Below are positions 4,610 to 27,975 of a DNA stretch of 64,000 nt, piece after piece. Source of the stretch: a bacterium (GTDB lineage Archaea > JAADDD01); contig JAADDD010000004.1 in assembly GCA_013154095.1 (NCBI GenBank), forward strand, positions 124,001 to 188,000, given 5' to 3'. A program made the position numbers and the translations under genes. The first letter of the stretch is position 1. Every line of letters begins with the position of its first letter. Below the pieces are notes generated by a model. That model was not told the origin of the DNA. It worked only from the letters and a program-made list of their open reading frames with translations, and made no database searches.

Positions 4610-6122
<1,513 letters not shown>

Positions 6123-6160
6123 TTAAAGAAGGAGTACGGCCGCAAGAGCCGCAGGGACCA

Positions 6161-10938: not shown

Positions 10939-11667
10939 ATGCGAGGCATAGAAGCTGTTGTTGCTATTGTACTATTGTTAATAATGACGATTGGTCTAAT
11001 TGCTATAGTCTGGATGATCTTTGGCCCAACGATGCGCCAGAGCTCCCAGAAGACAGGAAAAGAGATTGTAAAGACTACAGGAACGCAGGCAAGAGCCACA
11101 TATCTTCAGACACTTAAGTCAAACTGTGAAGGTAATGTTGGAGGACACTTTATTCCCACAGGATTAACGAAAGGTTCTACAATTACATTAGATGCTGCAG
11201 GAGTAAACGTGACAATTACTGCTATTAATGACTTGAGCAACTTCTCGCTGTGTGTGTATAGGGCAGGCACCGAGTCTGATGCGCCTGTAGTACTAGCCTA
11301 CTACTTCCTACCACAATTACAAACCAGCAACCCTACTCTTGCATGGCATACTGCTGCAATACAATCAGCAAATAACCAAAATGAGAACAAAGTTTACTGT
11401 TATTGTGTAAGTAATATAAGTGGTAAAACTACCGGAAAAATGATTTGCGGATGCGCATATGAACCATGTTCAGCACTAGGTAAAGATGCACAAATAAATT
11501 TCACAGATAATAAAACAAAAATTAATATAATTTTTACTAACGGTACATCTGTTTCAGTTAATAATGTACCAAAAGATGCGTTTATTTGTGCGTATTACAA
11601 TGGCTCATCAATTTGGTATTGTATACTGAAGGATGGAAAATGGGAAAACTGCAAAAGAGTAGCTTAA
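10939..11667 (+). CDS. Type IV pilin-like exported protein
   Basis: The N-terminus MRGIEAVVAIVLLLIM is a short basic leader followed by a glutamate and a long hydrophobic helix, the pattern of archaeal type IV pilins (compare RGVSPVVATVLL-type N-termini). The remaining roughly 210 residues are an extracellular domain with several N-x-S/T sequons and about ten cysteines, suggesting disulfides and glycosylation. It is the first gene of the pilus-like cluster and could be the major pilin or an initiator. It is more AT-rich toward its 3' end than its neighbours. Confidence 0.75.
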   Translation: MRGIEAVVAIVLLLIMTIGLIAIVWMIFGPTMRQSSQKTGKEIVKTTGTQARATYLQTLKSNCEGNVGGHFIPTGLTKGSTITLDAAGVNVTITAINDLSNFSLCVYRAGTESDAPVVLAYYFLPQLQTSNPTLAWHTAAIQSANNQNENKVYCYCVSNISGKTTGKMICGCAYEPCSALGKDAQINFTDNKTKINIIFTNGTSVSVNNVPKDAFICAYYNGSSIWYCILKDGKWENCKRVA

Positions 11668-11671
11668 AAAT

Positions 11672-11682
11672 CAATTTATTTT
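11672..11682 (+). promoter_or_regulatory. Internal promoter before the second pilin-like gene
   Basis: The 34-nt gap 11668-11701 is almost all A and T. The box caatttatttt lies about 25 nt before the ATG at 11702, so the rest of the operon may also be transcribed as a leaderless message separate from the first pilin gene. Confidence 0.45.
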
Positions 11683-11701
11683 AAAATAAAATTTTTAAAT
11701 A

Positions 11702-12166
11702 ATGCGAGCAATCTCTGAGCCTATTGCTTTTGTCCTACTACTAGTTTTTGTAGTATTTCTTATAGCAATCTGTGCTCCCTACTTTCTCAGTGCAGGTAAA
11801 TCCAGCGCTAAATATACTGCTTCCACTGCTAAGCCAGCAACCCAAGGTATTGGAACTAGTTTTACTATATTATTGGTCGAGAATGTTTCTGGTCATCCGT
11901 GCGTGCTGCTAAAAAACACCGGCATAAACGCGCTGCACAAGTTCATGTTCTACTTTATCGACTCAAAGGGACAGCTTCATATATTTAATTATACAATGAT
12001 TAATGTAACTAGTGCCTGCTCATGCAGCTACGGAGCACTCCAGCCGAGCCTGCCTCCTGGAGAATGCGGTTATGTTATTCTTCCGGTGAACTACAGCCTG
12101 CTCAAGGGACGCACACTCTACGCTCAAAGTGACTATAATGCACGCGCGGCCTACCTCGTGCCTTAG
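11702..12166 (+). CDS. Type IV pilin-like protein
   Basis: MRAISEPIAFVLLLVFVVF resembles the class of archaeal pilins starting RGISEP-IA, with the glutamate at the usual position of the mature helix. The 154-residue protein has a small ectodomain with a CSCSYG cysteine cluster and several sequons. The next gene starts 29 nt before its stop, so they are likely co-translated. Probable minor pilin or shaft subunit of the machine encoded downstream. Confidence 0.75.
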   Translation: MRAISEPIAFVLLLVFVVFLIAICAPYFLSAGKSSAKYTASTAKPATQGIGTSFTILLVENVSGHPCVLLKNTGINALHKFMFYFIDSKGQLHIFNYTMINVTSACSCSYGALQPSLPPGECGYVILPVNYSLLKGRTLYAQSDYNARAAYLVP

Positions 12167-14285
12167 AGCCCAGCTACTAACAGTCGAGCTTGTAGTGCTA
12201 GTTGCCATTTTTGTTTTTATTTTTGCCGTGCTCTATACTTATTACTGGGCTTTTCTGCGCCACACAGAAAACACCTTGAACAAGGTTACGCTTAGCCTGC
12301 TGCTGAAAAATCTCGGCAAGGAACTGGCCTACCTCTTTGCAAGTGGTAAGTCTGGCAGCTTGCAGCTGTACGTGCCTCCAGGAGACTTGCTCGAGACAGA
12401 CTACTACTCGCTGTACATTATTAACTCGGCTGCGCTCGGCCAGCAAGTCTACGTGAACTCTGTGCCAAACACTACTAAGGGAGGCATAGCCTTCGTGAAC
12501 GCTTCCCAGGTTAACCTTTCCGCTGCTCCTTGGCAAAAGTTTGTCGGTGCTGGCGGCGAGCTAGTACTGTACGTTCCGGACAGCGCAGTCAATGCTACTT
12601 ATTCCTTGCTGGTGAAGGCTGCACCAGAGCTCAAGCAAGCACTTGTAGCACTCGACCCGCCTAGAATTTCTGGCCTAGCAGTGCTCTCGCCAATATACTA
12701 TGCTCCTGGTATCTACCTCCAGCCTTTCAGGAACTATACCGGTCCTGTGTATTTCGCGCTGAACTCTTCTGCTCAGTGGAAAGGTATAGAAATAATAGAA
12801 TATGTAATATATAATAATACAATATATTTGCTGGCCTTCAAGGTCCCTTATGGCCTAGGCAGCATTCTTGTGGTAACCGATCCTTGGCTGTACAGGCAGC
12901 TTGCGCGCAAGCCAGTGCTAGCGGAGCTGCTCGGAGAGAACATCAAGTACGATCCGAGCACAGATCTATTTTATTCTAAATACAGAAAAATAATCAATCC
13001 GTACACTTATCCTTACAGCTACTTTATCTTTGCTTGCCACAACCTCCTGATCTTCACGCAGGGCTTTGCCAAGGTCGCGGTCTACAAGGTTCGGGGAGTC
13101 AGTTCTCGCGGACTTAATGCCAGCCTGTACTACCAAGCCTACACTGCAGGAGTGCTTGCAGTGCCTCTGCCAGGCTGTGGAGGCTACTACATCCGCAGCA
13201 CGGCGCCCGCGAAAGTTTTTGCCTTCTCTGGCGGTGGCTTTCTTGCTGTGACCACGCAGCACGCAGTGCTGCCTGCAAGCCATTATATTATTGTTTGCGG
13301 CAGAGGAGCTACAGTGACCATAAATTTCTTGGCGCACGGTGGCTCTGTTTATTTCCGTCTGCCTTCTGTCTTCGCGAAGTGCTACTGGATAAACATTTCT
13401 TCTGCGCTGCACAGCAACTATGCGCTTGCAGAAATCATTGCTAGTGCTCCTGTCACTGTTTACTTTGACCTAGGAGCCTTACAGTTTGACAGCATCTACG
13501 TGCCTCCAGTACCTGCAGGCAGCAAGGTAGTCTACTACGTCCCGCGGCTCAGGTTCTTCGAGCACGGCAAAGAATACTACTACTGGATGCTGGTATATTC
13601 GGTTATTGATAACCTTACTCGCAGCTACACGCTGATGGACGGCAGCGTAACTCCTGTAGGCGGAAAGAAAATTTTATTCTATGCCACCAAGAAAATAAAT
13701 TACACGGACCTCGACTTCTACTTGCCTCAAGGAAATGCAGTGCAGGTTGTTGCTAGTCCAGGAGTAAAAGTTCTTCTATTTCCTATAATTTATAATGCTA
13801 GTACTGGCAAGCTTGACGTGAACTCGAACATCGTCAACGGTTTTGGTGCTCTTTACCTGCTTGACAGCTTTATATTCCTGCCATTGCTCACCTCGAGCAA
13901 GCGCGCAGCTCAGCTATACTCGCTTGCTGTATATACTTCAGCGCCTAACCTTGAGCTGCTGTTCATGGCGTTCAACCTTTCGTACGTGCCGCTACTCGAT
14001 GTCTACAATCTTAGCGCCTCGCAACTAAGCAATTTCCTTGGTCATCCTAAAATCTACAGAGCGCATGTTGGCTTGCTGCTCTATTACTGTAAGTTCAACA
14101 ATGGCAACAAGCTGTTCTTGTTGATCAATAACAGCTTCCTTGCACAGCTAGAGCTGAAAGGATCCTGCAAGTGCTACAACGGCACAGGCTACTCTACTTG
14201 TAGCCTAGCAAAACAGCAGGTAGTGAGCCTGCGCTCTACTGCTGTTTATTATCTCACTGCTATAATTAAGGGTGCTACACTATGA
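12138..14285 (+). CDS. Large pilin-like surface protein with a 680-residue ectodomain
   Basis: The start is taken at the ATG at 12138 (715 residues); the frame opens 9 nt earlier. The N-terminus has a short leader ending LRAQ, then a long hydrophobic helix (LLTVELVVLVAIFVFIF) with the glutamate typical of pilins. A very large extracellular part rich in Tyr, Ser and N-x-S/T sequons follows. A pilin-like helix joined to such an ectodomain suits a tip or adhesin pilin (inference). No domain was recognised in the ectodomain. It ends in ATGA shared with the giant beta-helix gene. Confidence 0.7.
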   Translation: MHARPTSCLRAQLLTVELVVLVAIFVFIFAVLYTYYWAFLRHTENTLNKVTLSLLLKNLGKELAYLFASGKSGSLQLYVPPGDLLETDYYSLYIINSAALGQQVYVNSVPNTTKGGIAFVNASQVNLSAAPWQKFVGAGGELVLYVPDSAVNATYSLLVKAAPELKQALVALDPPRISGLAVLSPIYYAPGIYLQPFRNYTGPVYFALNSSAQWKGIEIIEYVIYNNTIYLLAFKVPYGLGSILVVTDPWLYRQLARKPVLAELLGENIKYDPSTDLFYSKYRKIINPYTYPYSYFIFACHNLLIFTQGFAKVAVYKVRGVSSRGLNASLYYQAYTAGVLAVPLPGCGGYYIRSTAPAKVFAFSGGGFLAVTTQHAVLPASHYIIVCGRGATVTINFLAHGGSVYFRLPSVFAKCYWINISSALHSNYALAEIIASAPVTVYFDLGALQFDSIYVPPVPAGSKVVYYVPRLRFFEHGKEYYYWMLVYSVIDNLTRSYTLMDGSVTPVGGKKILFYATKKINYTDLDFYLPQGNAVQVVASPGVKVLLFPIIYNASTGKLDVNSNIVNGFGALYLLDSFIFLPLLTSSKRAAQLYSLAVYTSAPNLELLFMAFNLSYVPLLDVYNLSASQLSNFLGHPKIYRAHVGLLLYYCKFNNGNKLFLLINNSFLAQLELKGSCKCYNGTGYSTCSLAKQQVVSLRSTAVYYLTAIIKGATL

Positions 14286-17200
14286 AGCGTTTACTTTTTC
14301 TGCTGTGCTTTTTGCTGCTTGCAGTCCCTGTGCACGCCTTGAAGCTCAGCTACAGCTATGTCCAGCAAGGAAACACGATTTACTTCACGGTTAACATCAC
14401 CAATGCCAGCTCTCCTGGCACGCTTGTTGTGGAGGCACAGCAGCTCTCAGGAACTTACCAAACAGTATATACAGCGCCCTACCCTGCAGGCAACACTAGC
14501 TTCAGCTTCACTGTTGTGCTGAACTCCCAGGATTCTGGTCAGCTAGTGCTCCAGGCAGGCAGCGTAACTAAAACAGTAACAGTCAAGGCCTACAAGGTGA
14601 CTCTCTGCGTTAAGAATGCTGACGGTGCTATAATAGAAAAACCTGTAAGCGTTGTAGTTTCTTTGCCTAGTGGAGCTGAGCTACCTCTAAGCTTTACTGG
14701 TTGCACAGAATTTAGCATATTCCAGCAAGGAAATCTTAGCCTGCTTTCTTATCCTCAGCAACTTGATGGAGCCAGCCTTTATGCTGTTGAGCCTGCAAGC
14801 ACAGTAAACATTAACGGCAACACTGAAATTGACATAGTATATAAAGTTATTCCTCGACCAGATATCGCTGTTAATATCGCTGGACAGAACTACACTAATC
14901 CTAGCACCCTTTACGTGCCTCCAGGAACTCCTGTGAAAATAACTCCAATATTCTATGATATATATTCTGGCAATGCGGTGCAGGGCACGGCCAAGATCTA
15001 CGTTAACGGCAAGTTGCTGAACCGATCTGTTTTTGTTTCCTCGAGTACTGGTAAGTTCACGGTCAAGGTAGTTTTCGTGCCAGGCTCTTCTAACTATAAT
15101 ATTACTTCATATACATTTACTATAATTTATACTAAACACTGGAAAGTTCTGAGCTCTGCGCTGCCAGAAATTTATTACAGCAAAGACGAGCTTACCTGCG
15201 CGTACATTTCCAGTCATGGCTGGCAGCCAGGCTACACTTACGTGCTTGAGCCAGGAGTGTACACGCGTGCAATCTGCGGCCAGAACTTCTTCTTGCTCAA
15301 CGCTTCCAGAGTTCACCTACTTGGTCAAGGAGCAGTAATTCAAGGATACTGGCAGCAAGTATACTTGCCGACACAGCAGCTGCTGTACTATGATTTCGTG
15401 GTTAGCGGGAGCGGTGTGCTGCTGGAAAACCTTACCTTTACTGGCCTAGCCCAAACCGCAGGCTCTATCCAAGAATACTTAGTCGTTGAAGGCAGCAATG
15501 CAGCAGTAAAGAACTGCTCGTTCTACTACTCTACTGGTCAAGTGTATGGCCTTGTGGTCAAAAATGCGCGCGATGTTTTGCTAGAAGGGCTAAAGTTCTA
15601 CAACATTTCTTTCTTTGACAGCGATGCAGTAGCAGTCAAGAATTCTAAAAATGTTTTGCTGACGAACTCCATGCTCTATAACTCGAACTTCTTGTTGGTT
15701 GGGCCTGCAGGAAGCTACAACTTCAGCAATTTCACTGCAGAAAACATTAAGGACATTGTTAACTACAGCACTTCCGGCATCGCCGCTCTTGTCGTGCACT
15801 TCTATGCAGTAGAGCCAGCAGCTCCGCAGTACATTAGTCAGCTGAAAGGGCTCAGCTTGCAGAATTTCTACGTGCAGTACTCTGCGAACTTTAACACGCC
15901 TTACCATGACTTTTCTGCTTCTGGCAGCGGTTACATTATTTTGCTAAAAAATGCTAGCACCGTTAAAATAACTAGAAACAAATATAATGGTTTGCCGATT
16001 TTTAAGCTGCTAGTGCTTCGCGCACAGAAAGTAATTGTTAACTCCAGCAAACTCACTGGAATGACTACAAAGCTTGTTGTAGGCAGCGCACAAAAAGTAG
16101 AAGTGCTTAGCAGCGAACTGAGCAGTTATGCAGGTCCACTACTATACTATAACATTTCTTCGCTCGAAATAAAAAACTCCAGTATTTACATTCGTGGACA
16201 GCGGAACCCGCAAGCAGTCAGGAACGTGCAGTTCGCAGTTATCAGTTCCAGTAATATTACTGCTGTTGGTCCTGCACTGCAAGTATACTACGACACAGCT
16301 ACTTCTACTCCAGCAATAATTATTCAAGCTTCAAGAATTGTAAGCTATGCAGCAGATGCTATCGTTGTCCAGGAAAACTTGCAGGCATTTCCGAACTCAG
16401 TGCTGCAGCTAAAACTGCTCCAAGTCTCTGTCTATGCTGCTAAGACAGGTCTGCACATACTTTCTGCGGCGGACCAGCTCGAAGTAGATGTAGTAAACAG
16501 CACTTTCTCTTCGCCAGGAAAAGGTACAGCAATCTACCTAGACTCGCTCAGCAGCTACCAGGCACTGCAGCTGTTCGTGAACAACTCGAGGTTTGTTTAC
16601 CTAGAAACAGCACTAAAACTCAAAGATATACTCTCTGCCAGCGCGCAAGTCACTGCGCTGAAGTTCTACAACTGCACGTTCAGGAACATAGCAGCTGTGT
16701 TTGCGTTTAGCGATGTGCAGGTTCCGCTGAGGTTTGTTGCTGCGGAAGGAAAGTACAGTAGCTGTAAGGTTGTGCTGCGTGCACAGGCTATGCTTGCCAC
16801 TGAGCCAGAAGAGCTTGAGCTTATTAACAGCACAGTAGTAGACAGCAACCTGGCAAACATCACCGCGAGCGACAGGTACGTGGAATACTACTTCGCGAAC
16901 ATCACGCTCAAAAATCCAGAATACGGTATAAGGGCAAGCGAAGCGTACAACATCTACTTAAATAATATATATGTAAATAGAATTTTAGGAAAAGACGACA
17001 TTTCCACATTTTATTTCTATGGCTGCAAGGATGTGCAAGTAAAGCAAGTTGTAGTTAACCTGAACTATTCTCAGTTCTTCGCTGTTTTTGGCTTTAATGC
17101 CTCCAGCAACTTCATTGTTCAAGGAATCACTGTCGTGCCTGGCGCACAAATTCTCGGATCTAAGCTCCCTTGTAAAGCACTGCTACTAGTAGAGAACTGC

Positions 17201-20200
17201 AGCGCTTTCGCTATTTCGCGCGTTTCTGTTAACTTCACTCCGCAGCTGTACGAGCCGTTCAATGGCAGCGTTATAGTAATCAACGACTCCCACAACTTCA
17301 CTCTCAGCGAGCTATCCTTTTCTCATCTTTACCGTATCATTAACGGCAACATCTGCCAAGACTCAGACTACGCGTACGACTTTTTCCCAATTACAGCAGT
17401 CACGATTTCCTCTTCCAGTGATTTTGCTGTGAATAAGGTGGCATGCGACGCGATTTCGCATGCTTGCCTGATCATTGACAGTTCTTCGCACTTCTTGGTC
17501 AAGAATATCAATACGCGCAATGCTTACATTCAGTACAGTCACTGTATCCTGTACCTGCTTTCGCGAACAGCACAGCTGCAGATTACTAGCAGCAGTTACG
17601 GAAAGCTCGAAAACGTTTACAGCAACAGATCACTGTTTTCCTTTCCTAGCGAAAGTGCACCAGTCTCGCTCTATAACGACCAGTATATAATTCTGGAAAA
17701 TGTCAGCATAGCTAACACAGACTCTGCAGGAATAAATATATCGAATTCTGCAAGCATTGAGCTGCTCAACTGCAGCATAGACCAAGTAGGAGTTCATGGA
17801 ATCTACGTGTCCAATTCTGAAAACGTTACGTTCAGCAGCTGCAGGCTAGAGAGTGCTCGGCACAGCGATATTTATGTAATTACTTCTAAACAGTTATTAG
17901 TGAAGAACAGCGCTCTCAGCGATGCAGGCTTCGCAGAAATTTTGCTGGATGGCTCGAGCGGCGCAAAACTGCTAGGCGATACTCTGCTTGGTGGCAAGTA
18001 CGGAATCTATGCAGAGCAGACAAGCAATGTCTACTTGCAGCAAGTAAACATTACAGGCACTCTAGATTCTGGAATTTACTTGCTGAATACCTCGCGCGTA
18101 ACCATTAACGGCACCTACATCTATGGTTCACGTGTTGGTCTGCACGTAGTTGAACTGCTCGGCAAGCTCTGCCTTGCAGGCCTGAAGCTAATTAATAACC
18201 GCTATGCTGCAGAAGTCGACGACCTTCTTTCTGTCACGCGAATCTATGAAACCAGCTGGACAAGCGTGCAGGCTATCTACGGAGCAAGTTCAGGCTATCT
18301 ACTCTTCGTCAATCCGCTCAGCAAAGTAGTGAACAGCGACACCATTACCGTTAAGGACAACATGCTTGTCCGGCCACCAATTAATATCAGAGTTTTTGCC
18401 ATCTATGCAGTAAACACCAGTAAAGTAGTGCTCGCTAACAGCACCCTCGAGCACAACTATCAGTTAGTCGCGCTAGTGAACACCAAGACTTGTAGCATCA
18501 ACGAATCAAGGCTGTACGATGCATATTATATTCTTGAAGGTTACAACGTTACGCTGATAGAAATAGGCAAATCGTTGCTTGGAGCTGCACGCTACCAGCT
18601 TTACCTTAAGCAAGGAGACAAGGTTATCGTGCAGGCAAGCAACTTTTCTGGCTGCACTAACAGCACATGCATCGCCAAGGCAGAGGCGCTAAAACTGCAG
18701 CAGCTAAAAGAACTGCAGGTCTCTGGTTCTAGGTTTAGCAACGAGAGCTGCGCGATTAACTGCTATCACTGCGCTGCGGCCCAAATATATAATAGCAGCT
18801 TTTCTGCAACAGCACTTTCAGTTAACTACACGTTTTCTTACAGCTTGCTCGTAAAGAATAGCAGCTTCGAGCATGACAGTCGAGGCATTAACATATTCAC
18901 TTCAAGAAACGACAGCGTTGTTGGCTGCACGTTTGTCGTGTCGGACAGCGCAGTTCAGTTTGTCAATGCTACTGATGTATATATAAGAAAAAATAATATT
19001 ACTGGTGCGCAGCTGGCCATTTTCGGCGCAGCGTCTTCCTACATCTATATTCTTGGAAATAATGTAACGAAAAATAATATAGGCGTAAAGTTCACTCTCG
19101 CGTACCAATATTATTTCGGGTACTTCAAAACAGACGAAGCCTACGTGCGCAACACAGAAATTGCAGACAACAGATTCGCCGATAATAGAATTGCACTGTT
19201 CTTCAATGGCTCGAGAAACTATACAATCAAGAACAACTGGTTCATTAACTGCAGCAAAGGAGTTGACATAATATATGCTCTACTTAGCTGTATGCCTGTT
19301 CCTCCTACATGTGTTGCTGTTACGGCATACAATATCAGCATTCTAAATAATGTTTTCTACAGTACGAGCGAAGCAATTACCGGATTACTGGCAGTGCACC
19401 ACGTGCTCCTTGCTCTTACCGGCACAAACACAACTTACGGATGCGGAGGAGATAGCTGCACATACGACTACTACAGCTGGCCAAATAACATTACCGTGGC
19501 CGGCAACGTAATCGTGGACAGCAACACAGCGATTAACTTCACGAATGTATATTTAATTAATGTAATAAATAATAAAATAATTAATGTGTCGCGCGCTTTG
19601 TATACTTACTGTGCCTTCGAGGAAAATGTTTCAGGCAACAAGATAATAAATGCGCGGCACGGCGCGGACCTTGCCTACATCAACGAGCTCTGGTTCCTGG
19701 ATAACACAGGAAGAAACATTTCTGCCGAATTGCTGGAAGTCTACTCTGTGAAAAACAACACATACATAGAAAAGAACAACTTCGTTGAACTTGGACTCGC
19801 AGTCAATGTCAGTGGAGCTAGCCTGGAAAAATTAATCATTGCAAACAATACGTTCTGCCGAGTAAATAGCTATTCTTTCCTTGTAGTTTCTCAGAAGCAC
19901 ATTACCAACCTTATAATCGAGCAAAACAATGTCTGTAAAGCAGGAGGAGCAGCAAAGTTCAGTGTTGCGAGCACAGAAGTTATTATTTTCGATAACAACA
20001 CATTTAACGTAAGCGGACCAATAGAGATTGCGTCGCACAACAGCGGATTCTTTGCTGCACTGTTCAACAAAATTTACAGCACTGCTAGCTTCTCGTACAC
20101 TGGCACAACTACTATCTTGTCCGTAGGCGACGATGTCTTCGACAACGTTTCTGGCGGCATCAGGCTGAACCTTTCTAACAGGCAGTACGGAGAGACGCTT

Positions 20201-21361
20201 GTGCGCCTGGTGGTCAAGCACTCTGGTCCGCTCGAGCTTACTTCTCCTGGAACAGGTAATGTACTCGCGGCTGATATATTATTGCAAGACAGCAAAGGCT
20301 TCAGCCTAGACTACACCGGCACTGCAGGCAAGGCAAACATCACTAACGTTTCCTGCAGCGATCTTAGCGGTTCCTGCGTTAAGCTGTCTGCTAGCACGAT
20401 TACTAACTGCACAGTAGTTAATGTGTCTGCCCAGCAGGTTCACAGCGGAGTAATAGTAAGTGCATTGTCTGTCCGACGGCTCAACGTATCTCACGTGCAG
20501 GTCTCAGGCTGCACTGTAGGTATAGAGCTAAACATTCCAGAACTAGGAAGTGGTGTGCTTGAGCACTTCAGCATCGTTGGCGCATCTTATCCTCTCACGC
20601 TAGTAACTTCTAACTTGCTGGTGAGCAAAGGAGGGGTTGCCTACAGCCCAGCAGTCTATGCAGCAGTTCAAGTCCTGCACTCAAGCAACGTTACTTTCAG
20701 CTTTGTGCAGGTCCAGCACTGCTCCGCGGCAGAAGGTGCAGTACTGATTAATGAAAGCAGCAATATACGCCTCTTCAACTGCAGCGTGGTCAATAACAGC
20801 GCAAGAGGTGTAGTTATTTACTACTCGACTGTTTACATCTACGGTGCAAGGATAGAAGGCAACGAGGAGTACGGCCTGTACGTTGGTGCGCTCGAGCCAT
20901 ACAACAAGAGCAAGCAGAAAGTTGTCGTCAACGAGTCCTTCATCTGCTACAACCCTCCTAATGTTAGCCTCGACGTGGCAAACGTTGAGTGGCAGCAAGC
21001 ATACCTGGCAATCTTTAACTCGTACTTTGGGCAGACGCTGCCAGCAAATCCATACCAGGTGTTCTTTGTCGCGAACCAGTACGTCAACACCTATCCAGAC
21101 AACAACCGCTTCTGCAACGGTACCCGCCGCGGACTGGTTGCTCCGCAGCAGCAGACACGCATCACGCAGAAAATTCCGAATATTATTGTGCCTTTTAGGC
21201 CAGTGGTAAATCTCTACGTTGTTACTGTCTTTGGCACCGACTGCGGCGCATATGCTGCCTCTAGAGTATTCAGCATTTTGCCTGTCTTTCCTCAGCCTAG
21301 AATTTACGGTCATGGCAGGTTCGTGCTAGTAATTAAGCATGGCCGCATCTACATCATCTGA
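14282..21361 (+). CDS. Giant secreted parallel beta-helix protein (2359 residues)
   Basis: A Sec signal peptide (MKRLLFLLCFLLLAVPVHA) is followed by about 250 residues of beta-sandwich-like sequence. Then comes a very long array, from about residue 300 to 2250, of short degenerate units such as NSKNVLLTNS and NSENVTFSSC. These are characteristic of right-handed parallel beta-helix (PbH1, pectate-lyase/NosD-like) proteins. It carries a great many N-x-S/T sequons. No C-terminal transmembrane anchor is visible; it ends GRIYII. Lying inside the pilus-like operon, it could be a fibre-like adhesin or a secreted cargo of the machine. No catalytic site was identified. Confidence 0.85.
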   Translation: MKRLLFLLCFLLLAVPVHALKLSYSYVQQGNTIYFTVNITNASSPGTLVVEAQQLSGTYQTVYTAPYPAGNTSFSFTVVLNSQDSGQLVLQAGSVTKTVTVKAYKVTLCVKNADGAIIEKPVSVVVSLPSGAELPLSFTGCTEFSIFQQGNLSLLSYPQQLDGASLYAVEPASTVNINGNTEIDIVYKVIPRPDIAVNIAGQNYTNPSTLYVPPGTPVKITPIFYDIYSGNAVQGTAKIYVNGKLLNRSVFVSSSTGKFTVKVVFVPGSSNYNITSYTFTIIYTKHWKVLSSALPEIYYSKDELTCAYISSHGWQPGYTYVLEPGVYTRAICGQNFFLLNASRVHLLGQGAVIQGYWQQVYLPTQQLLYYDFVVSGSGVLLENLTFTGLAQTAGSIQEYLVVEGSNAAVKNCSFYYSTGQVYGLVVKNARDVLLEGLKFYNISFFDSDAVAVKNSKNVLLTNSMLYNSNFLLVGPAGSYNFSNFTAENIKDIVNYSTSGIAALVVHFYAVEPAAPQYISQLKGLSLQNFYVQYSANFNTPYHDFSASGSGYIILLKNASTVKITRNKYNGLPIFKLLVLRAQKVIVNSSKLTGMTTKLVVGSAQKVEVLSSELSSYAGPLLYYNISSLEIKNSSIYIRGQRNPQAVRNVQFAVISSSNITAVGPALQVYYDTATSTPAIIIQASRIVSYAADAIVVQENLQAFPNSVLQLKLLQVSVYAAKTGLHILSAADQLEVDVVNSTFSSPGKGTAIYLDSLSSYQALQLFVNNSRFVYLETALKLKDILSASAQVTALKFYNCTFRNIAAVFAFSDVQVPLRFVAAEGKYSSCKVVLRAQAMLATEPEELELINSTVVDSNLANITASDRYVEYYFANITLKNPEYGIRASEAYNIYLNNIYVNRILGKDDISTFYFYGCKDVQVKQVVVNLNYSQFFAVFGFNASSNFIVQGITVVPGAQILGSKLPCKALLLVENCSAFAISRVSVNFTPQLYEPFNGSVIVINDSHNFTLSELSFSHLYRIINGNICQDSDYAYDFFPITAVTISSSSDFAVNKVACDAISHACLIIDSSSHFLVKNINTRNAYIQYSHCILYLLSRTAQLQITSSSYGKLENVYSNRSLFSFPSESAPVSLYNDQYIILENVSIANTDSAGINISNSASIELLNCSIDQVGVHGIYVSNSENVTFSSCRLESARHSDIYVITSKQLLVKNSALSDAGFAEILLDGSSGAKLLGDTLLGGKYGIYAEQTSNVYLQQVNITGTLDSGIYLLNTSRVTINGTYIYGSRVGLHVVELLGKLCLAGLKLINNRYAAEVDDLLSVTRIYETSWTSVQAIYGASSGYLLFVNPLSKVVNSDTITVKDNMLVRPPINIRVFAIYAVNTSKVVLANSTLEHNYQLVALVNTKTCSINESRLYDAYYILEGYNVTLIEIGKSLLGAARYQLYLKQGDKVIVQASNFSGCTNSTCIAKAEALKLQQLKELQVSGSRFSNESCAINCYHCAAAQIYNSSFSATALSVNYTFSYSLLVKNSSFEHDSRGINIFTSRNDSVVGCTFVVSDSAVQFVNATDVYIRKNNITGAQLAIFGAASSYIYILGNNVTKNNIGVKFTLAYQYYFGYFKTDEAYVRNTEIADNRFADNRIALFFNGSRNYTIKNNWFINCSKGVDIIYALLSCMPVPPTCVAVTAYNISILNNVFYSTSEAITGLLAVHHVLLALTGTNTTYGCGGDSCTYDYYSWPNNITVAGNVIVDSNTAINFTNVYLINVINNKIINVSRALYTYCAFEENVSGNKIINARHGADLAYINELWFLDNTGRNISAELLEVYSVKNNTYIEKNNFVELGLAVNVSGASLEKLIIANNTFCRVNSYSFLVVSQKHITNLIIEQNNVCKAGGAAKFSVASTEVIIFDNNTFNVSGPIEIASHNSGFFAALFNKIYSTASFSYTGTTTILSVGDDVFDNVSGGIRLNLSNRQYGETLVRLVVKHSGPLELTSPGTGNVLAADILLQDSKGFSLDYTGTAGKANITNVSCSDLSGSCVKLSASTITNCTVVNVSAQQVHSGVIVSALSVRRLNVSHVQVSGCTVGIELNIPELGSGVLEHFSIVGASYPLTLVTSNLLVSKGGVAYSPAVYAAVQVLHSSNVTFSFVQVQHCSAAEGAVLINESSNIRLFNCSVVNNSARGVVIYYSTVYIYGARIEGNEEYGLYVGALEPYNKSKQKVVVNESFICYNPPNVSLDVANVEWQQAYLAIFNSYFGQTLPANPYQVFFVANQYVNTYPDNNRFCNGTRRGLVAPQQQTRITQKIPNIIVPFRPVVNLYVVTVFGTDCGAYAASRVFSILPVFPQPRIYGHGRFVLVIKHGRIYII

Positions 21362-21363
21362 GC

Positions 21364-21786
21364 ATGCTCGAGCTGCTCACGCGAGTCTTTTTCCTGATCT
21401 TTGCTGTCTTCGTCTTTACTCTGTTCTCGCTCTACCTTATTCCTGCGCTGCATTCTTACCAGCACTACTACGGCAAGCAGGAAACCTACGCGCTTGCACG
21501 CAATTTTCACGCACTGCTAGCTTACTGCATAGTTTCTGCTCTTGTTTATGGCTACGCTAAGATCTCTTTTTCCATGCCAGCAACAATTCAACGTCACACT
21601 GTTATAATTTCATGCACGAAATACAATAACATTTCTCTACTCGTCATAACATCTCCTTTTCTTAAGTACACTATTCAGCTACCATCTTTTGTTAATTGCA
21701 ACTTTAAGCTAACTCTTGGAGCGCCGGAGTACTATCTTATCTGCAAAAAAATAAATAATGAAGTACAAGTAAGTATGGTAACATGA
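21364..21786 (+). CDS. Small membrane-anchored protein of the pilus-like operon, unrecognised
   Basis: This 140-residue protein has one strong N-terminal transmembrane segment (about residues 5-28). A short extracellular or periplasm-like domain follows with a few cysteines and sequons. It starts 2 nt after the beta-helix gene and shares ATGA with the ATPase gene. It could be a pseudopilin or an anchor for the beta-helix protein, but no family motif is visible. Confidence 0.6.
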   Translation: MLELLTRVFFLIFAVFVFTLFSLYLIPALHSYQHYYGKQETYALARNFHALLAYCIVSALVYGYAKISFSMPATIQRHTVIISCTKYNNISLLVITSPFLKYTIQLPSFVNCNFKLTLGAPEYYLICKKINNEVQVSMVT

Positions 21787-23675
21787 AACCTTCAGTGCTT
21801 AAACAGATCCTCTCAGAGCTTCGGCAAGTAAAGAAAAAAGAGAAAAAGAAGGAAACTTCTAGAGAAATAAAAATTGTGGAATATAAACCTCCTAGCGTGC
21901 TGCAAGAGCTGCAAAAAGAAATTCAGCAGCAGCTACCAGAAAAACTGGAGCTGCCAAAACAAGAAGTTCCTGAACTTAAAATCCAGAAGAAAAAGAAAAA
22001 GAAGGAAAAAGAAGAGGAAGAAAAGGCAAGAAAAGAAACTGCTGCAGGACTAGAAAAGCTGTTCAAAAAAGGCGAACAGCTGCGCTCTGCTGCTCTTCGT
22101 CTTAGCAGTTTCCGCTTTCTTGGTAGCTCAGAAGACTACGTGCACGTCGAGGAATACTACGTTATTCCTCCGCTGGTCAAGGTAGTGATAGTCTACAACA
22201 AGAAGCAGGCTAGGTACGAGTACATCGTAGTGGAACCGGAAATTTCTGTAAAAGAAAAAGAGCTGATAGACAAACTCGAAGAAATGATAGTAGAAGAAAT
22301 GGAAGTGAGCTACTTTGATTTTTCTGATCTCAAGGAAGCCGAAGCATTTGTAGAAAAGAAACTAAAGGAGATCCTCGAAAAACGAAAATGGTTCATTAAA
22401 GAATTCGAGATGCTGAACAAATACGGTAGCATTTCTCAGGTTGCTGCCAAGATCCGCTACTATGTGGTGCGCGACTTAGTATACTTAGGAAAAATTGAAC
22501 CAATAATGCGCGATCCACACATTGAGGACATCTCGATGGACGGAATAAACATTCCAGTATATGTTTACCACAGGAAGTATGGCTCGATTCCTACTAATAT
22601 AGTGTTCACTTCCCTGGAAGAGGCAAATGCCTTTATCATTAAGCTGGCCCAGAAGTGCCGCAGGCATGTGTCACTGGCAGAGCCAAGGCTCGATGGCCGC
22701 TTGCCGGATGGTTCGCGTGTGCAGGCAACTTATGGCAAGGAAATAACTCTCCGTGGACCCACGTTCACCATCCGTAAGTTCCGCGAGAAGCCATACACGC
22801 CAGCGCATCTCATCTTCTTTGGCACTTTTTCTGCAGAGCTCATGGCCTACATGTGGTTCTTGATCGAGCACCAACGCACCTTTCTAGTAGCAGGTGGCAC
22901 GGCTTCAGGAAAAACAACCACGCTCAACGCTCTTACTTTCTTTATTCCTCCTAACTCAAAGATAATTACTATCGAAGACACTCCTGAGATCCGCATACCA
23001 CACGAAAACTGGATCGAGGCAGTTGCTCGTCCAGGTGTTCGTGTCGGCCAGTATGTTTACGGAGAAGTGACAATGGAGGACTTGCTGAAGGATGCCTTGC
23101 GCCAGCGTCCAGATTACCTTATAGTAGGAGAGATTCGTGGCCGCGAGGCTAACGTGCTCTTCCAGGCAGTGGCTACCGGACATGCTGGCGCAGGCACAAT
23201 GCACGCTGACTCTATCGAGGCAGTGATTCATCGACTGCTCATCAGGCCAATTGAGCTGCCTCCATCACTGCTCGAGCACCTCGACTGTATAATAGTCCAG
23301 TCGCGCCTGCGCAGAGGAGAAAAATTCTTCAGGCGCGTGATGCAGGTAGCCGAGATAAAGGGTATAGATATTGAGCGCGAGTATCCTATTTACGATATAG
23401 TTTACCGCTGGGATCCTAAACAAGACAAAATTGTGCAGATAAAAAAGAGCTACTTGCTCTACGAAAAGCTCGCTGAAATTTACGGCTACGAAGAGGAAGA
23501 AATCAAGGAAGAACTAGACAAGAAAATATATTTCCTCGAGTGGACGGTAAGGAAAAGAATATTCGACTACAAGGACTTCTACCACTATGTATGTAAATAC
23601 TACACTGACAAGGAGAGGTTGCTGAAGGAAATAGGATACTATGAAAGCAGAGAAAGAGCTGCGGCTAGAGTCTAG
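21783..23675 (+). CDS. Type II/IV secretion ATPase (FlaI/TadA/PilB-like)
   Basis: This cytoplasmic hexameric ATPase powers pilus assembly or secretion. About 110 residues of Lys/Glu-rich, probably coiled sequence come first. Then an N-terminal domain is followed by the core: Walker A GGTASGKTTT at about 371-380, Asp box ITIEDTPEIRIP, Walker B-like DYLIVGEIRG at about 444-453, and the His box ATGHAGAGTMHAD. All motifs are intact. It is linked by overlaps to two TadC-type membrane genes, the usual partners. At 630 residues it is longer than most FlaI because of the charged N-terminal extension. Confidence 0.95.
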   Translation: MKPSVLKQILSELRQVKKKEKKKETSREIKIVEYKPPSVLQELQKEIQQQLPEKLELPKQEVPELKIQKKKKKKEKEEEEKARKETAAGLEKLFKKGEQLRSAALRLSSFRFLGSSEDYVHVEEYYVIPPLVKVVIVYNKKQARYEYIVVEPEISVKEKELIDKLEEMIVEEMEVSYFDFSDLKEAEAFVEKKLKEILEKRKWFIKEFEMLNKYGSISQVAAKIRYYVVRDLVYLGKIEPIMRDPHIEDISMDGINIPVYVYHRKYGSIPTNIVFTSLEEANAFIIKLAQKCRRHVSLAEPRLDGRLPDGSRVQATYGKEITLRGPTFTIRKFREKPYTPAHLIFFGTFSAELMAYMWFLIEHQRTFLVAGGTASGKTTTLNALTFFIPPNSKIITIEDTPEIRIPHENWIEAVARPGVRVGQYVYGEVTMEDLLKDALRQRPDYLIVGEIRGREANVLFQAVATGHAGAGTMHADSIEAVIHRLLIRPIELPPSLLEHLDCIIVQSRLRRGEKFFRRVMQVAEIKGIDIEREYPIYDIVYRWDPKQDKIVQIKKSYLLYEKLAEIYGYEEEEIKEELDKKIYFLEWTVRKRIFDYKDFYHYVCKYYTDKERLLKEIGYYESRERAAARV

Positions 23676-24585
23676 GAGCTGGGAGGAGTTTTTCTACCGG
23701 CTAGTTGGTCGCAGGTTCGAGAAATTATTCGAGAAGAACAAAAAATTCAAAATAGCGTTGCGGGCTGCCTATATCCAGAAAACTCCTGGACAATACTTCG
23801 CTGAAGCGTTCAGCAAGGCAGTGCTGCTAGGAGTTGCACTCGGGGTTAACCTAGCCTTTCTTTTTTCTTTCCTGTATTATATTACTACAAAGAATGCCTA
23901 CCTTGTGCCCCTGCTTTTTCTCACGCTTGCTGTTCCGTTCACTATTCTTGGCACACTGGCAATACTAGTGCTTTATTACATAAACCCATTTTTGGCAGCT
24001 TCCTCTAGAAAGGAAAGGCTAAACAAAGAATATCCTTTTGTTATGCGCTATCTTGAAGCTCTTTCTGCTACAGGACTCCCTCCCGCTGCACTTTTTCAGA
24101 TGCTTGCAGAATCTAAGGTTTATCCTGAGAGCGCAAAAGAGGCAAGAAGAATAACTGCTATGCTGAACTCTGGCTATGATATTATTACTGCACTGCTGCG
24201 CGCGGCAGAGTACTGCCCCTCGCCAATGTACCGCAGATTCTATATTTCCCTTGCCTCGACTATCCAGGCAGGTGGCAGCCTAGAAATGTTCTTCAAGCTA
24301 GAAGCTGAGCGCGCACAAAAACTCATCGAGCTTCGCTACAAAGACTTCGAGAATACTCTTGCTCTAGTAGTGCAGATGCTGATAATGGTTGTGATAGTCT
24401 TTCCCTTGCTTACTTTTTCTGTTATGCTACCGATAAAAATGTTCCAGAATGTTCCTGCTGTGCAGCAGTTCCTTAAACTATCGCTACCGATTGACCCAGG
24501 AATGCTGATTCTTTTCATGAGCTATGTGCTCACTCCAATGATGATTGCACTGTTTGTGGTGCTTATACGTTCCAGTGCACCATGA
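23641..24585 (+). CDS. TadC/FlaJ-type membrane platform protein, first of two
   Basis: This 314-residue membrane protein has a basic N-terminal cytoplasmic part, two hydrophobic segments, a T2SSF-like helical domain (RYLEALSATGLPPAALFQML, then STIQAGGSLEMFFKLEAE) and further membrane helices at the C-terminus. This is the TadC/FlaJ platform pattern. It begins 35 nt before the ATPase stop and shares ATGA with the second platform gene. Two half-size platform genes in tandem resemble TadB-TadC more than the single large archaellum FlaJ. Confidence 0.85.
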   Translation: MKAEKELRLESRSWEEFFYRLVGRRFEKLFEKNKKFKIALRAAYIQKTPGQYFAEAFSKAVLLGVALGVNLAFLFSFLYYITTKNAYLVPLLFLTLAVPFTILGTLAILVLYYINPFLAASSRKERLNKEYPFVMRYLEALSATGLPPAALFQMLAESKVYPESAKEARRITAMLNSGYDIITALLRAAEYCPSPMYRRFYISLASTIQAGGSLEMFFKLEAERAQKLIELRYKDFENTLALVVQMLIMVVIVFPLLTFSVMLPIKMFQNVPAVQQFLKLSLPIDPGMLILFMSYVLTPMMIALFVVLIRSSAP

Positions 24586-25529
24586 GATGCATGGCAGAAA
24601 AAGGCTATGCAAGATTAACGCTGCTTTCCGCGATTCCGCTAAAAAAGAGAATAGTAGTTGCAGCAATCATTACTGCTGCAGCTGCTGGCATTCTTTTTTA
24701 TCATTTCTTCACGGCCAAACTAAATTACATAGATAAGGTCAAAATAATTACTATATTTCTTTATGTACTTGCAGGTAGCATACTTTTTGTTGTGCTGCCT
24801 GAAGCTGTCGAGGAGGCGAAAAGAGAACGGATAGAAAAGATATTTCCTGACTACCTTCGCGACCTAGTGAAGGCGCTGCGCACAGGCTATCCAATGGCTC
24901 TTGCACTAGACTACGTAGTCAAGACAAACGACTACGGCGACTTTCAGCCGTACGCAAAAAAGCTAGCAGTGAGAGTTTCTTGGGGAAAGAAGTTCGAGGA
25001 AGAGATACTCGAGATTGCCAGAAGAATAAAAAGCAAAATAATTTACCTCTGCGCAGAAATAATTTCTAGCGCAGCCCGCGCAGGAGGAAAACTTGTAGAG
25101 ATCCTTAGCGCTGTCAGCGACCTAGTCTCTACGGTAACTGAACTAGAGATGCGCCGTAGAGTAACGCTTAAGTCGCACACGTACATAGTTCTAGTAGTTT
25201 TCGGAGCCTACCTTGCAGCAATTTATATTATTCTCTACACTTTTATTCCATCTTTTGTGAAGGCCTACGCCAACTATTACATTATCCTTATTTATTTAGC
25301 AGTGATAGGTCAGGCCATCTGGTCAGGCTTTCTTGCTGGACAAATAGAAAGGCTGTCACTGCTAGCCTCACTGAAATGGGTGGCCATTTTCTTGCTGATA
25401 GTTGCCAGCGCCTATGGTCTACTAGTAGTGCTTAAGCCACCTATCTCGCCTAAAGCTATTCAGAAAGCTAAGCAGCAGCTGCAGAAGTTCGAGCAGACGG
25501 CAAACTTTACTAATTTTACGCTGCTCTGA
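24582..25529 (+). CDS. TadC/FlaJ-type membrane platform protein, second of two
   Basis: This 315-residue protein has two N-terminal membrane helices, then a cytoplasmic helical domain with LRDLVKALRTGYPMALAL and EIISSAARAGGKLVEILS. The last motif is the conserved glycine-containing turn of T2SSF domains. Two or three C-terminal membrane helices and a short tail with sequons follow. It is the tandem partner of the previous gene and likely forms a heteromeric inner-membrane platform with it. Confidence 0.85.
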   Translation: MRCMAEKGYARLTLLSAIPLKKRIVVAAIITAAAAGILFYHFFTAKLNYIDKVKIITIFLYVLAGSILFVVLPEAVEEAKRERIEKIFPDYLRDLVKALRTGYPMALALDYVVKTNDYGDFQPYAKKLAVRVSWGKKFEEEILEIARRIKSKIIYLCAEIISSAARAGGKLVEILSAVSDLVSTVTELEMRRRVTLKSHTYIVLVVFGAYLAAIYIILYTFIPSFVKAYANYYIILIYLAVIGQAIWSGFLAGQIERLSLLASLKWVAIFLLIVASAYGLLVVLKPPISPKAIQKAKQQLQKFEQTANFTNFTLL

Positions 25530-25534
25530 GCGCC

Positions 25535-26560
25535 ATGAACATCGTTAGCCTTGCTTTCTTTTTGCTCATTTTTGCCATGTTCATCACGTTCATTACTTAT
25601 ATTCTGCATAGACTGATTCTGCTATACTATCCGCAGACAACTTATGCTGCTGGCTTCCGCTCTGGCCTGTATCCGCTTCTTCGACGAACGTTTTACTTGC
25701 TGCTGCCAAAAAACTACACTTGCAAAGTAGTTGCCGGACCTGCACCAAAGATACCTTGGTGCAAGTATTCTGTTCTGGCAGATATTTGCATCATAAACAC
25801 AAAATCTGGTAGCATCCCTGCAGCCAACTGCACTGTGCTGCTGTACAACTTGGATCCAGCAACTCTCAGCCTGTTAAGAGAAGAACATATAGAACTGGCA
25901 AACATTTCCGGTGTATTGTTTGCTGTTGTTAACCATCACCTAGTACTCGTGGCAAACTTTTCTGCTCTTCCTCTGCGCACACTCCACCACTTGATCAACG
26001 ATTTTTACTTTGCTACTTATGCTATAAGTATTTACCAGTACTATTATTTTCTGCAGCATTCAGAAAACATTGGCAAAAGGCTGTACCTTGCTGCCGAAAT
26101 GGTGCTTGGCGCAGCTCCATGCTTGAAATACATTGATGCGCGCAAAGGCCTGCAAGTAAAAATTGTTTTCTCTAACTTTTCCTGCAACTCTAGTTATGTG
26201 CAGCAAGTTCTGGTAGGTGCTACTAAATATATTAAACAGCTGGAAAATTTTGACAAAGATACATACATTTACGACTATCTCTTTCCTTTACCAGGAGAAG
26301 AGTACAACTTGCCGCTACTTCTCCAGAGTTATTTTTACCAGAAATTTTCGTCCTGTGCTGCAATAGAAAATGTCGAGCTAAACTACTCTTTTGCTGCAGT
26401 GGGCAACTGCAGACAAGCTTGCTGGCACTGCTACTTCGCTGCGCGAGTACCGGGAGCTCCTGTACTAGTAACTTATAGCCAGACAGTAAAAGCAGGCAAG
26501 CTGGTCCTGGAAGCTAATTATACACTGCCAGTAATATATTATACTGTGGCTGTATGCTAG
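25535..26560 (+). CDS. Membrane-anchored exported protein of the pilus-like operon, unrecognised
   Basis: This 341-residue protein begins with a hydrophobic N-terminal helix (about residues 4-28, FFLLIFAMFITFITYILH). A large outer domain follows with about a dozen cysteines and several sequons. The anchor lacks a typical pilin leader, so it may be a simple signal-anchored protein. It starts 5 nt after the second platform gene and overlaps the next gene by 7 nt (ATGCTAG). Its function is unknown; position suggests a structural or assembly component. Confidence 0.6.
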   Translation: MNIVSLAFFLLIFAMFITFITYILHRLILLYYPQTTYAAGFRSGLYPLLRRTFYLLLPKNYTCKVVAGPAPKIPWCKYSVLADICIINTKSGSIPAANCTVLLYNLDPATLSLLREEHIELANISGVLFAVVNHHLVLVANFSALPLRTLHHLINDFYFATYAISIYQYYYFLQHSENIGKRLYLAAEMVLGAAPCLKYIDARKGLQVKIVFSNFSCNSSYVQQVLVGATKYIKQLENFDKDTYIYDYLFPLPGEEYNLPLLLQSYFYQKFSSCAAIENVELNYSFAAVGNCRQACWHCYFAARVPGAPVLVTYSQTVKAGKLVLEANYTLPVIYYTVAVC

Positions 26561-26892
26561 AGTACATCGACCTCGCACTCTCGCTCGTGCTTGTTTTCAG
26601 CCTGCTGTACTTCGTGTTTTCGCAGTACAAACTTCTCGGTAATTTTCCTGTGCTGCAGCTCTACCAGAACTACCAGGCAGTCAACGAAGTTTACCACATT
26701 TTCCAGACACACGTAGTCCAGCAATTTTCGCCGAGCTCCAAGTTCAGCATTATATTCTACAACAACGGCAGCCTTTTCTCGCTTATTCCTAGCATTACCC
26801 AAGGAGGAAAGAACTGCTTTAACGTTACTCTTATCACCAAAAATTCACGAGGAGTTGCTCCAGGCAACCTAACGGTAGAAATATGCTACTAA
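26554..26892 (+). CDS. Small pseudopilin-like protein
   Basis: This 112-residue protein starts MLEYIDLALSLVLVFSLLYFVF: an acidic residue near the start of a long hydrophobic helix, as in pilins but without a basic leader. A small ectodomain with two cysteines and two sequons follows. It overlaps the next gene by 10 nt. Probably a minor pilin or membrane-anchored accessory protein; no family was recognised. Confidence 0.6.
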   Translation: MLEYIDLALSLVLVFSLLYFVFSQYKLLGNFPVLQLYQNYQAVNEVYHIFQTHVVQQFSPSSKFSIIFYNNGSLFSLIPSITQGGKNCFNVTLITKNSRGVAPGNLTVEICY

Positions 26893-27437
26893 GAGGCCAA
26901 ACATTTTTGATGCTCACACTTGTAGTGCTAGTGTTTGCTCTAGTTCTTACTTATTTTTATTATAATTATGTTGGCGAATACAAGCAAATAAAAGATGTGC
27001 TGCAGCTAGGAGGAGCAACAAAGCTAGATCCTAGAGTTTTCCTTGGCCTGAAAGTGCTGCAGCTCTCGGTGCTTAACCTGCAGTACTGGTGCTACTCGCA
27101 CTACTACATTTACAGACAGTGTCCAAACATTTCTTCGCCTGTTTGCTCTACCTATCCTAAATACTGTTTATTTGTACCTACTGCTAGAGGAACGCTGCCT
27201 ACTACTGGTTTCTACGGTGCGCTTGCTAGCTACTTTCGCCGTTTTTACGCAGAAACAGGCTGCAGAATAGCTTACTTTAGCGTGCAGGCGCTAGGCACTA
27301 GTGATCCTTTTTATGCGGTACATTACATTATTTCCGTGCAGTGCTACAACGGAGAGCAGTTCCTGCTAGATTTTGTTGGTGTGATCGACAATGAAACAGG
27401 AGAAGTCTACGCGCTGCCTGGATCATTTAAAGTTTGA
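26883..27437 (+). CDS. Type IV pilin-like protein with RGQ leader
   Basis: MLLRGQTFLMLTLVVLVFALVL has a short leader ending RGQ before the hydrophobic helix. This resembles class III archaeal signal peptides, where processing occurs near a Gly-Gln or Ala-Gln. The 184-residue protein carries a cysteine-rich ectodomain. It is the last exported protein of the cluster; the following ASCH gene starts 47 nt before its stop. Confidence 0.65.
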   Translation: MLLRGQTFLMLTLVVLVFALVLTYFYYNYVGEYKQIKDVLQLGGATKLDPRVFLGLKVLQLSVLNLQYWCYSHYYIYRQCPNISSPVCSTYPKYCLFVPTARGTLPTTGFYGALASYFRRFYAETGCRIAYFSVQALGTSDPFYAVHYIISVQCYNGEQFLLDFVGVIDNETGEVYALPGSFKV

Positions 27438-27975
27438 TCCTATTTTCCTTGAGGAAGTCCTTGCTGGCAGGAAGCTCTCAACTGTGAGGCTCGGAAAGGC
27501 AAAGTATATTCCCGGCAGCGAGGTATACCTTGTCTGCCGTAATTTAGTATACGGGGTGCTGGTAATAGAAGGAGTAGAAGAAAAAAAGGTAGGAGAGCTG
27601 AAAGAGCAGGACGCTGTGCGCGACGGGTTCAAGAACCTAGAAGAGCTGCTCAAGTTCCTTTTCATGCTGTATCCCAATCTCGACCTTGACTCTACGGTAA
27701 GCATTATTAAATTCAAGCTAAAGAAACGGTACAGCGAGCCAGTGCCCCTTTTTTATGCTAGGCTATATGGCCAGAAGGACACGCGCGAGGCAGCACAAGA
27801 AATTCTCGCAAGCGGAGTAAGGCTAAAAGAGTACGACAAGAAAATTCTCGAGACAGTTGCAAGACAAGGTATCTATACAGCAAAGCGTAAGTTCGGTACA
27901 GACTTTTCCACAATTCATGGCATAATCAAAAAATACTGGCAGCGCATTAAAGGAACATGCTCGAAGAAACTATAA
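27391..27975 (+). CDS. ASCH-domain protein with C-terminal helix-turn-helix-like segment
   Basis: The N-terminal 110 residues form an ASCH (PUA-like) domain: FDPIFLEEVLAGRKLSTVR, then GSEVYLVCR, then VGELKEQDAVRDGFKNLEEL. ASCH proteins are small RNA- or nucleotide-related binders. The C-terminal 80 residues include YDKKILETVARQGIYTA and a helical continuation that could be a helix-turn-helix. The start lies 47 nt inside the preceding gene; no better start follows before the domain. It is the first cytoplasmic protein after the pilus-like set and may simply be read through from it. Confidence 0.75.
   Translation: MKQEKSTRCLDHLKFDPIFLEEVLAGRKLSTVRLGKAKYIPGSEVYLVCRNLVYGVLVIEGVEEKKVGELKEQDAVRDGFKNLEELLKFLFMLYPNLDLDSTVSIIKFKLKKRYSEPVPLFYARLYGQKDTREAAQEILASGVRLKEYDKKILETVARQGIYTAKRKFGTDFSTIHGIIKKYWQRIKGTCSKKL

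Follow-up and report, generated by a model that had tools for sequence, protein, structure and literature searches.

What kind of machine is encoded by a run of pilus-like genes that encloses a 2359-residue beta-helix protein, and what might so large a protein do there? This arrangement is found on archaeal contig JAADDD010000004.1 (assembly GCA_013154095.1), in positions 124,001–188,000, a stretch of 64,000 nucleotides (nt) to which we refer as the window and by which all coordinates are given. The sequence-only reading of this DNA had described eleven genes running in one direction at 10939–27437, with a giant beta-helix protein amid pilus or Tad-type components. Both descriptions held up: all eleven genes were found in place as one run on the + strand, and the giant gene, the product of which matches Beta_helix (PF13229) with E=3.2e-39, lies inside it. 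The comparisons reported below give good support, at the level of sequence, for a type IV pilus operon of a sort that is widespread in one archaeal phylum with mostly small genomes, and this operon probably also makes the giant as a surface adhesin.

The genes are closely packed, with junctions of −38 to +34 nt across the run. It opens with two pilin-like genes, one encoding 242 amino acids (aa) in the probable major-pilin slot (10939–11667) and one encoding 154 aa with the class III-like motif RAIS (11702–12166), followed by a gene for a 718-aa protein with the motif RAQL, possibly a large minor pilin (12129–14285). The gene for the giant secreted beta-helix protein (14282–21361) overlaps that of the 718-aa protein by 4 nt and is separated by a 2-nt gap from the next, which encodes 140 aa with an N-terminal transmembrane segment and no class III motif (21364–21786). 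From base composition, a frame of 2359 codons would arise by chance with log10 P of about −55. Downstream lie a 630-aa secretion ATPase of the VirB11/PilB type with a charged N-terminal extension (21783–23675), the N-terminal half (23641–24585, 314 aa) and C-terminal half (24582–25529, 315 aa) of a FlaJ/TadC platform, both matching T2SSF, two further proteins with an N-terminal transmembrane segment (25535–26560, 341 aa, and 26554–26892, 112 aa) and a pilin-like protein of 184 aa with the motif RGQT (26883–27437). In this superfamily an ATPase and a platform build a filament from pilins, and the run holds the parts by which a type IV pilus is recognized: a VirB11/PilB-type ATPase, a FlaJ/TadC platform and class III-type pilin N-termini. 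Because an ASCH-domain gene at 27391–27975 overlaps the last gene by 47 nt, the transcription unit may extend beyond the run.

The two half-size TadC genes had been taken for two platforms, which the alignments contradict. The 23641–24585 protein aligns with positions 21–224 of 555 in the ArlJ model NF004704 and the 24582–25529 protein with positions 194–423 of 465 in the ArlJ model NF004705; when both were aligned with a two-domain TadC of 591 aa that belongs to another archaeon, the first covered residues 95–284 and the second residues 384–569. As the two proteins correspond to different halves of one FlaJ/TadC, the possibility of two separate platforms was rejected. The succession of ATPase, TadC-N and TadC-C is also present in a 700-kb archaeal genome (L002), and in 64 of the 72 archaeal neighbourhoods of high-scoring ATPases two TadC genes come after the ATPase. 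Under a stricter test, an unbroken run of the ATPase and two TadC genes, the count was 70 of 91 neighbourhoods of one phylum, and in both sets the loci without two TadC genes include truncated ones. The 91 neighbourhoods were not selected for giants; the loci are among the best ATPase scorers rather than a random draw, some short-flanked loci were left out, and two genomes (G148 and G434) contribute two loci each. Open reading frames were called mechanically, and the run reaches the end of the fetched stretch in 33 of the 91. Two tadC genes per locus are also described for several archaeal pilus clades by Makarova and co-workers (PMC4858521), who report predicted adhesins and large proteins with signal peptides alongside them. 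The view that pilus loci usually have one platform gene does not survive these counts, and the contrast drawn earlier between this locus and known pilus loci is invalid because two tadC genes are common in archaea and already in print; split platforms are not to be read as double machines.

The motif calls made earlier for the ATPase and the platforms were confirmed by Pfam, with T2SSE at E=3.4e-36 for the former and T2SSF at E=6.2e-15 and 6.4e-11 for the two platform halves. The best solved relative of the ATPase is the archaeal GspE 2oap (401 bits), followed by FlaI (316 bits) and CpaF (155 bits). When 95 sequences were placed in a tree with CpaF as its root, the window ATPase fell in a clade with 50 ATPases of one archaeal phylum and 6 database proteins (support 0.983), within which its nearest grouping has a support of only 0.422. 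The Archaeoglobus GspE joins this clade at a support of 0.889, and FlaI lies outside the 90-sequence node (support 0.966) that contains the window ATPase. Family models gave 440.5 bits for the archaellum FlaI equivalog (cut-off 550), 174 bits for the bacterial Tad model TIGR03819 (cut-off 373) and 56 bits for the GspE model TIGR02533 (cut-off 630). Taken together, the closest structures, the position in the tree and the archaellum score below its cut-off identify the ATPase, by sequence, as pilus-type and as neither archaellum nor bacterial Tad. An archaellum was rejected on the FlaI score, on the placement of FlaI outside the clade and because no other arl family exceeded its cut-off in the operon. 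A bacterial Tad pilus and a type II secretion system were likewise rejected, the former with TIGR03819 under its cut-off and the latter with TIGR02533 far under its own, and no secretin family was matched in the operon proteins.

The closest counterparts in gene order are four loci (L080, L094, L144 and L145) from one taxonomic order of 18 genomes, that of G255. These share a near-identical arrangement (p p P X s, ATPase, TadN, TadC, s s p), whereby two small pilins, a pilin-like protein of 518–620 aa, a pilin-like protein of ~200 aa and a ~150-aa protein precede the ATPase, TadC-N and TadC-C, and proteins of 331–360, 124–153 and 201–242 aa follow. The series in the window reads 242, 154, 718, giant, 140, ATPase, 314, 315, 341, 112 and 184 aa. 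Gene order and sizes around the ATPase and the split platform are nearly the same in all five, but the giant occurs only in the window, and the four loci have the ~200-aa pilin-like gene in its position. Other loci of the same taxonomic order are more variable or cut. The sequence-only reading, to which this gene combination suggested a dedicated machine for a giant adhesin, was to be given up if a described pilus clade proved to carry the same gene set; such a clade is largely found as regards the ATPase, the platforms and the order, and is not found as regards the giant.

The pilin-like and accessory proteins are more divergent. A FlaFind-like class III pattern is matched by three N-termini, those of the genes at 11702, 12129 and 26883, and the 11702–12166 protein matches Pilin_N with E=0.008 (17.5 bits, under the gathering threshold of 25.2). 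In the 10939–11667 protein, the N-terminus of which reads MRGIEAVVAIVLLLI, the pattern was matched only in another register, and the protein was judged pilin-like by eye. No class III motif was found in the genes at 21364, 25535 and 26554, even when read upstream in frame, while most relatives' genes in these slots have one. By position, the 140-aa gene stands where relatives carry a ~150-aa pilin-like gene, and the gene of relatives in the place of the 341-aa gene encodes 272–360 aa in many loci. When seven accessory proteins of the window were compared by profile (hhalign) with seven slots of the relatives, the 242-aa protein gave the sole notable match, to the PilA-like slot A (P 66.8%). 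The 718-aa, 112-aa and 184-aa proteins matched slots C, F and G best, each weakly, the 140-aa and 341-aa proteins preferred slots other than those expected, and the giant's first 400 residues matched no slot. With phmmer against the open reading frames of the neighbourhoods, two pilins reached best E values of 4e-4 and 0.01, and the other accessory proteins gave nothing convincing. The 718-aa protein, entered in the protein database as 715 aa, matched no Pfam family and, among 7996 candidates scored from 5.8 billion proteins, no homolog but itself at E<=0.01. No prepilin peptidase family is among the matches listed for 40 window proteins, which were scanned against Pfam with E limits of 0.1 to 0.001.

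The giant itself scores 134.5 bits against Beta_helix (gathering threshold 25.9), in 8 stretches, and 76 bits against NosD (E=3e-21). Inspection by eye indicates that its signal peptide is of the Sec type rather than of class III; the protein carries 84 N-glycosylation sequons and has no C-terminal transmembrane segment. When it was divided into seven overlapping pieces, four gave beta-helix matches (about residues 402–488, 1062–1290, 1466–1606 and 2126–2203), and the pieces 1–330, 651–1050 and 1701–2100 gave none at E<=0.01. Hydropathy shows a weak period of 22 residues, and the periodicity of asparagine peaks at 26 and then at 22. A search for relatives gave none at E<=1e-5 among about 8000 candidates scored from 5.8 billion proteins, the candidates in this search, as in that for the 718-aa protein, having to share 5-residue words with the query. 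Two other giants are encoded in the window: a 2391-aa protein at 34620–41795 (+) with a signal-like N-terminus, a C-terminal transmembrane segment, 75 cysteines, 96 sequons and no Pfam match, and a 2481-aa protein at 49207–56652 (−) with a signal-like N-terminus and no convincing family.

That pilus loci carry no giant cargo cannot be upheld as a rule, as large secreted proteins are present in the loci of relatives and in those described in PMC4858521. Among the 91 neighbourhoods, 19 have in the ATPase's run a protein of at least 700 aa with a hydrophobic N-terminus and 7 have one of at least 1000 aa, where export was called by a crude hydropathy test. Some of these large proteins start like pilins, and that of L167, one of the 19, we take from its N-terminus to be P-type ATPase-like. 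Pfam searches with 14 large neighbours found a beta-helix in that of L115 (1588 aa, 147.6 bits), a weak beta-helix under the cut-off in that of L113, which is cut by the contig end, and a lectin-like Laminin_G_3 domain in L101 and L077. Other neighbours carry domains of the Ig, PKD or beta-propeller type, and five of the 14 (L099, L139, L078, L081 and one of the two in L077) had no Pfam match.

A C-terminal module of about 530–730 aa is shared by large proteins in 14 of the 91 loci (L090, L099, L101, L115, L165, L169, L177, L194, L201, L176, L198, L196, L193 and L197; profile E<1e-50), the profile having been built partly from seven of those 14, plus L156 and L160. In all 14 the module gene precedes the ATPase on the same strand, with the nearest copy 2.2–3.7 kb from the ATPase; it belongs to the ATPase's unbroken run in 11 and has a hydrophobic N-terminus as called in 8. 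Five in-run module genes (in L165, L176, L196, L197 and L198, 1232–2165 aa) fail the hydropathy test as called, so that 7 of 91 for proteins of at least 1000 aa is not an upper bound. Where scanned, the parts before the module vary, from a beta-helix in L115 to a lectin-like domain in L101. In two loci that were selected for nearby beta-helix matches and kept outside the 91, the module is carried by a 3140-aa lectin and beta-helix protein encoded 30 nt before the next pilus-locus gene (L156) and by a lectin and Ig protein of 4103 aa, from the furthest start, the gene of which shares 4 nt with the first pilin-like gene (L160). A docked adhesin would be expected to have a constant tail and a variable front, and the shared-module proteins may form a family of pilus-linked modular adhesins. 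The window giant is likewise large, upstream of the ATPase and on the same strand, and L115 and L156 also have a beta-helix; however, it lies in the middle of its run, whereas the module proteins lie at or near the head of theirs, which is broken in L115 and L156.

The explanation that we favour is a pilus operon with its own giant adhesin. The ATPase would drive one platform made of two half-proteins, which would assemble the class III pilin-like proteins into a filament. The giant, judging from its signal peptide, would be exported by Sec; having no membrane anchor of its own, it would most likely act as an adhesin, and translational coupling would match its production to that of the pilus. 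It may be held at the cell surface or the filament tip by an N-terminally anchored partner, for which the 718-aa pilin-like protein is the best candidate. The adhesin role is proposed because of the secretion signal, the fold family, the way its gene is coupled to those of the pilus and the comparable giants of relatives; docking of the giant on the pilus, adhesion and any partner or host cell are inferred. Contact of the organism with a host is possible. A bolder form, which we consider doubtful, gives the giant the working role at the pilus, as a rod of beta-helix fixed via the co-translated 718-aa protein. By arithmetic alone, such a rod could comprise up to about 1800 residues, or some 80 coils if each takes 22 residues. 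The large proteins of relatives, with their constant C-terminal module and an exchangeable lectin or beta-helix front, would then solve the same problem with other components, and small-genome archaea would have a general class of modular adhesins that are mounted on pili and select the partner cell. How small archaea recognize and hold other cells is poorly understood, and if giant lectin and beta-helix proteins do ride on pili, pilus operons would list candidate binding proteins.

Several results weigh against an adhesin tied to the pilus. Neither the giant nor its 718-aa neighbour has the shared C-terminal module (hmmsearch --max and hhalign), and the large proteins of relatives are therefore an analogy rather than homologs; no homolog of the giant was found by which its link to the pilus could be judged from conservation. 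Alignment-free prediction gave no confident fold for the giant, with a mean predicted local distance difference test (pLDDT) score of 44.6 for residues 1–673 and 50.5 for residues 1040–1300. The accessory proteins fall in the expected slot in five of seven cases, provided that either of slots B and C counts as correct for the 718-aa protein, and the slot matches besides that of the 242-aa pilin are each insignificant (below 12%). Giants are not special to the pilus locus, given that the window has two more of over 2300 aa elsewhere. In a hand-compiled set of 30 genomes, at least 3 beta-helix proteins among the matches listed are encoded less than 10 kb from a pilus ATPase, where 1.1 would be expected, and the difference is not significant (P about 0.10); with such a P value and a count made by hand, we claim no enrichment.

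These points bear on the alternatives to different degrees. The giant could be a general cell-surface or surface layer (S-layer)-associated glycoprotein that shares the transcript without contacting the filament, as its 84 sequons, the presence of the giants at 34620–41795 and 49207–56652 and the distribution of beta-helix matches (E<=1e-12 in 97 of 279 genomes of the phylum, most of them with no listed pilus ATPase close to the match) would suggest. We regard this as unlikely, given that the giant gene is translationally coupled on both sides, sits between a pilin-like gene and the ATPase, and has large counterparts in other pilus operons. A machine resembling type II secretion, with a pseudopilus that exports the folded giant through the envelope, would draw on ATPase and platform families (T2SSE and T2SSF) that are common to type IV pili and type II secretion, and the giant must still cross any S-layer. 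This is very improbable: no type II part beyond these two families, such as a secretin, was matched in the operon, the one other such name in the window is a T2SSK match under its cut-off (21.8 bits against 24.2) in a DUF655 protein at 28514–29125, and the ATPase falls far short of the GspE cut-off (56 against 630 bits). An outer membrane is, moreover, generally not expected in an archaeon.

The beta-helix might also be a polysaccharide-degrading enzyme delivered with the pilus instead of an adhesin. Right-handed beta-helices are often carbohydrate-active, as PMC11532034 also states, and the giant matches the NosD and Beta_helix families. Pfam, however, matched no lyase or hydrolase family in the giant, and no solved structure was matched by its sequence at E<=0.01; we consider an enzymatic role very improbable.

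Upstream of the run lies a gene for a 121-aa membrane protein with a winged-helix domain and one N-terminal transmembrane segment (10457–10822, + strand), which matches TrmB (E=8.7e-10) and MarR in Pfam and, weakly and under the cut-off, ArlX (E=0.012), and may be a candidate regulator of the pilus. AT-rich TATA-like stretches were seen by eye directly 5′ of the 11702 pilin gene and after this winged-helix gene. Elsewhere in the window are an archaeal 16S ribosomal RNA gene (4611–6123, −), with no 23S ribosomal RNA match, and a gene for a 513-aa protein with many transmembrane segments and no Pfam match (29831–31372, +). The best near-full-length 16S match was 75% in 60 genomes of a first phylum and 74% in an 18-genome order of it, and 81% in a second phylum (101 genomes); short partial matches were higher. 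LonB matches are present in 134 of the 148 genomes searched in the first phylum, with identities of 50–55% for the best near-full-length ones, but in only 3 of 101 genomes of the second (37–38%). Judging from its genome sizes, the first phylum may correspond to DPANN archaea. By LonB and the ATPase, the window appears to lie on the side of the LonB-bearing, small-genome phylum, with 16S at best 75% there and 81% in the second phylum.

Among the papers listed by literature searches, judged by titles and the beginnings of abstracts, none describes an archaeal pilus operon that encodes a giant beta-helix protein, and a literature search returned no paper that combines DPANN, type IV pili and beta-helix. 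The nearest parallels are partial. Tad-type clusters with TadB and TadC are reported for a group of Nanohaloarchaeota in PMC9563170, and, by analogy only, a pilus contributes to host binding in a parasitic bacterium according to PMC12206443. Gut methanogens have adhesin-like proteins that share with the giant a large right-handed beta-helix domain; according to PMC11532034, almost all of these carry membrane-anchoring domains, of which none is seen in the giant, and that paper's main text does not mention the word pilus. The closest system is that of the two-TadC pili in PMC4858521, which comprise clade 1 of Methanococci, many clade 2 pili of euryarchaea and clade 4B of Thermoproteales, and in which large secreted proteins are modelled as possible adhesins, some at the tip. 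These pili and the window have in common a VirB11-type ATPase, two tadC genes, class III pilins and extra, possibly adhesive secreted components. The DUF2341 domain of the clade 1 adhesins was not matched by Pfam in the operon proteins of the window, and the large protein of the window differs from those in that text in being a 2359-aa beta-helix protein encoded mid-operon. The giant looks unusually large and without known relatives, while the machine that it accompanies looks like one of a known sort.

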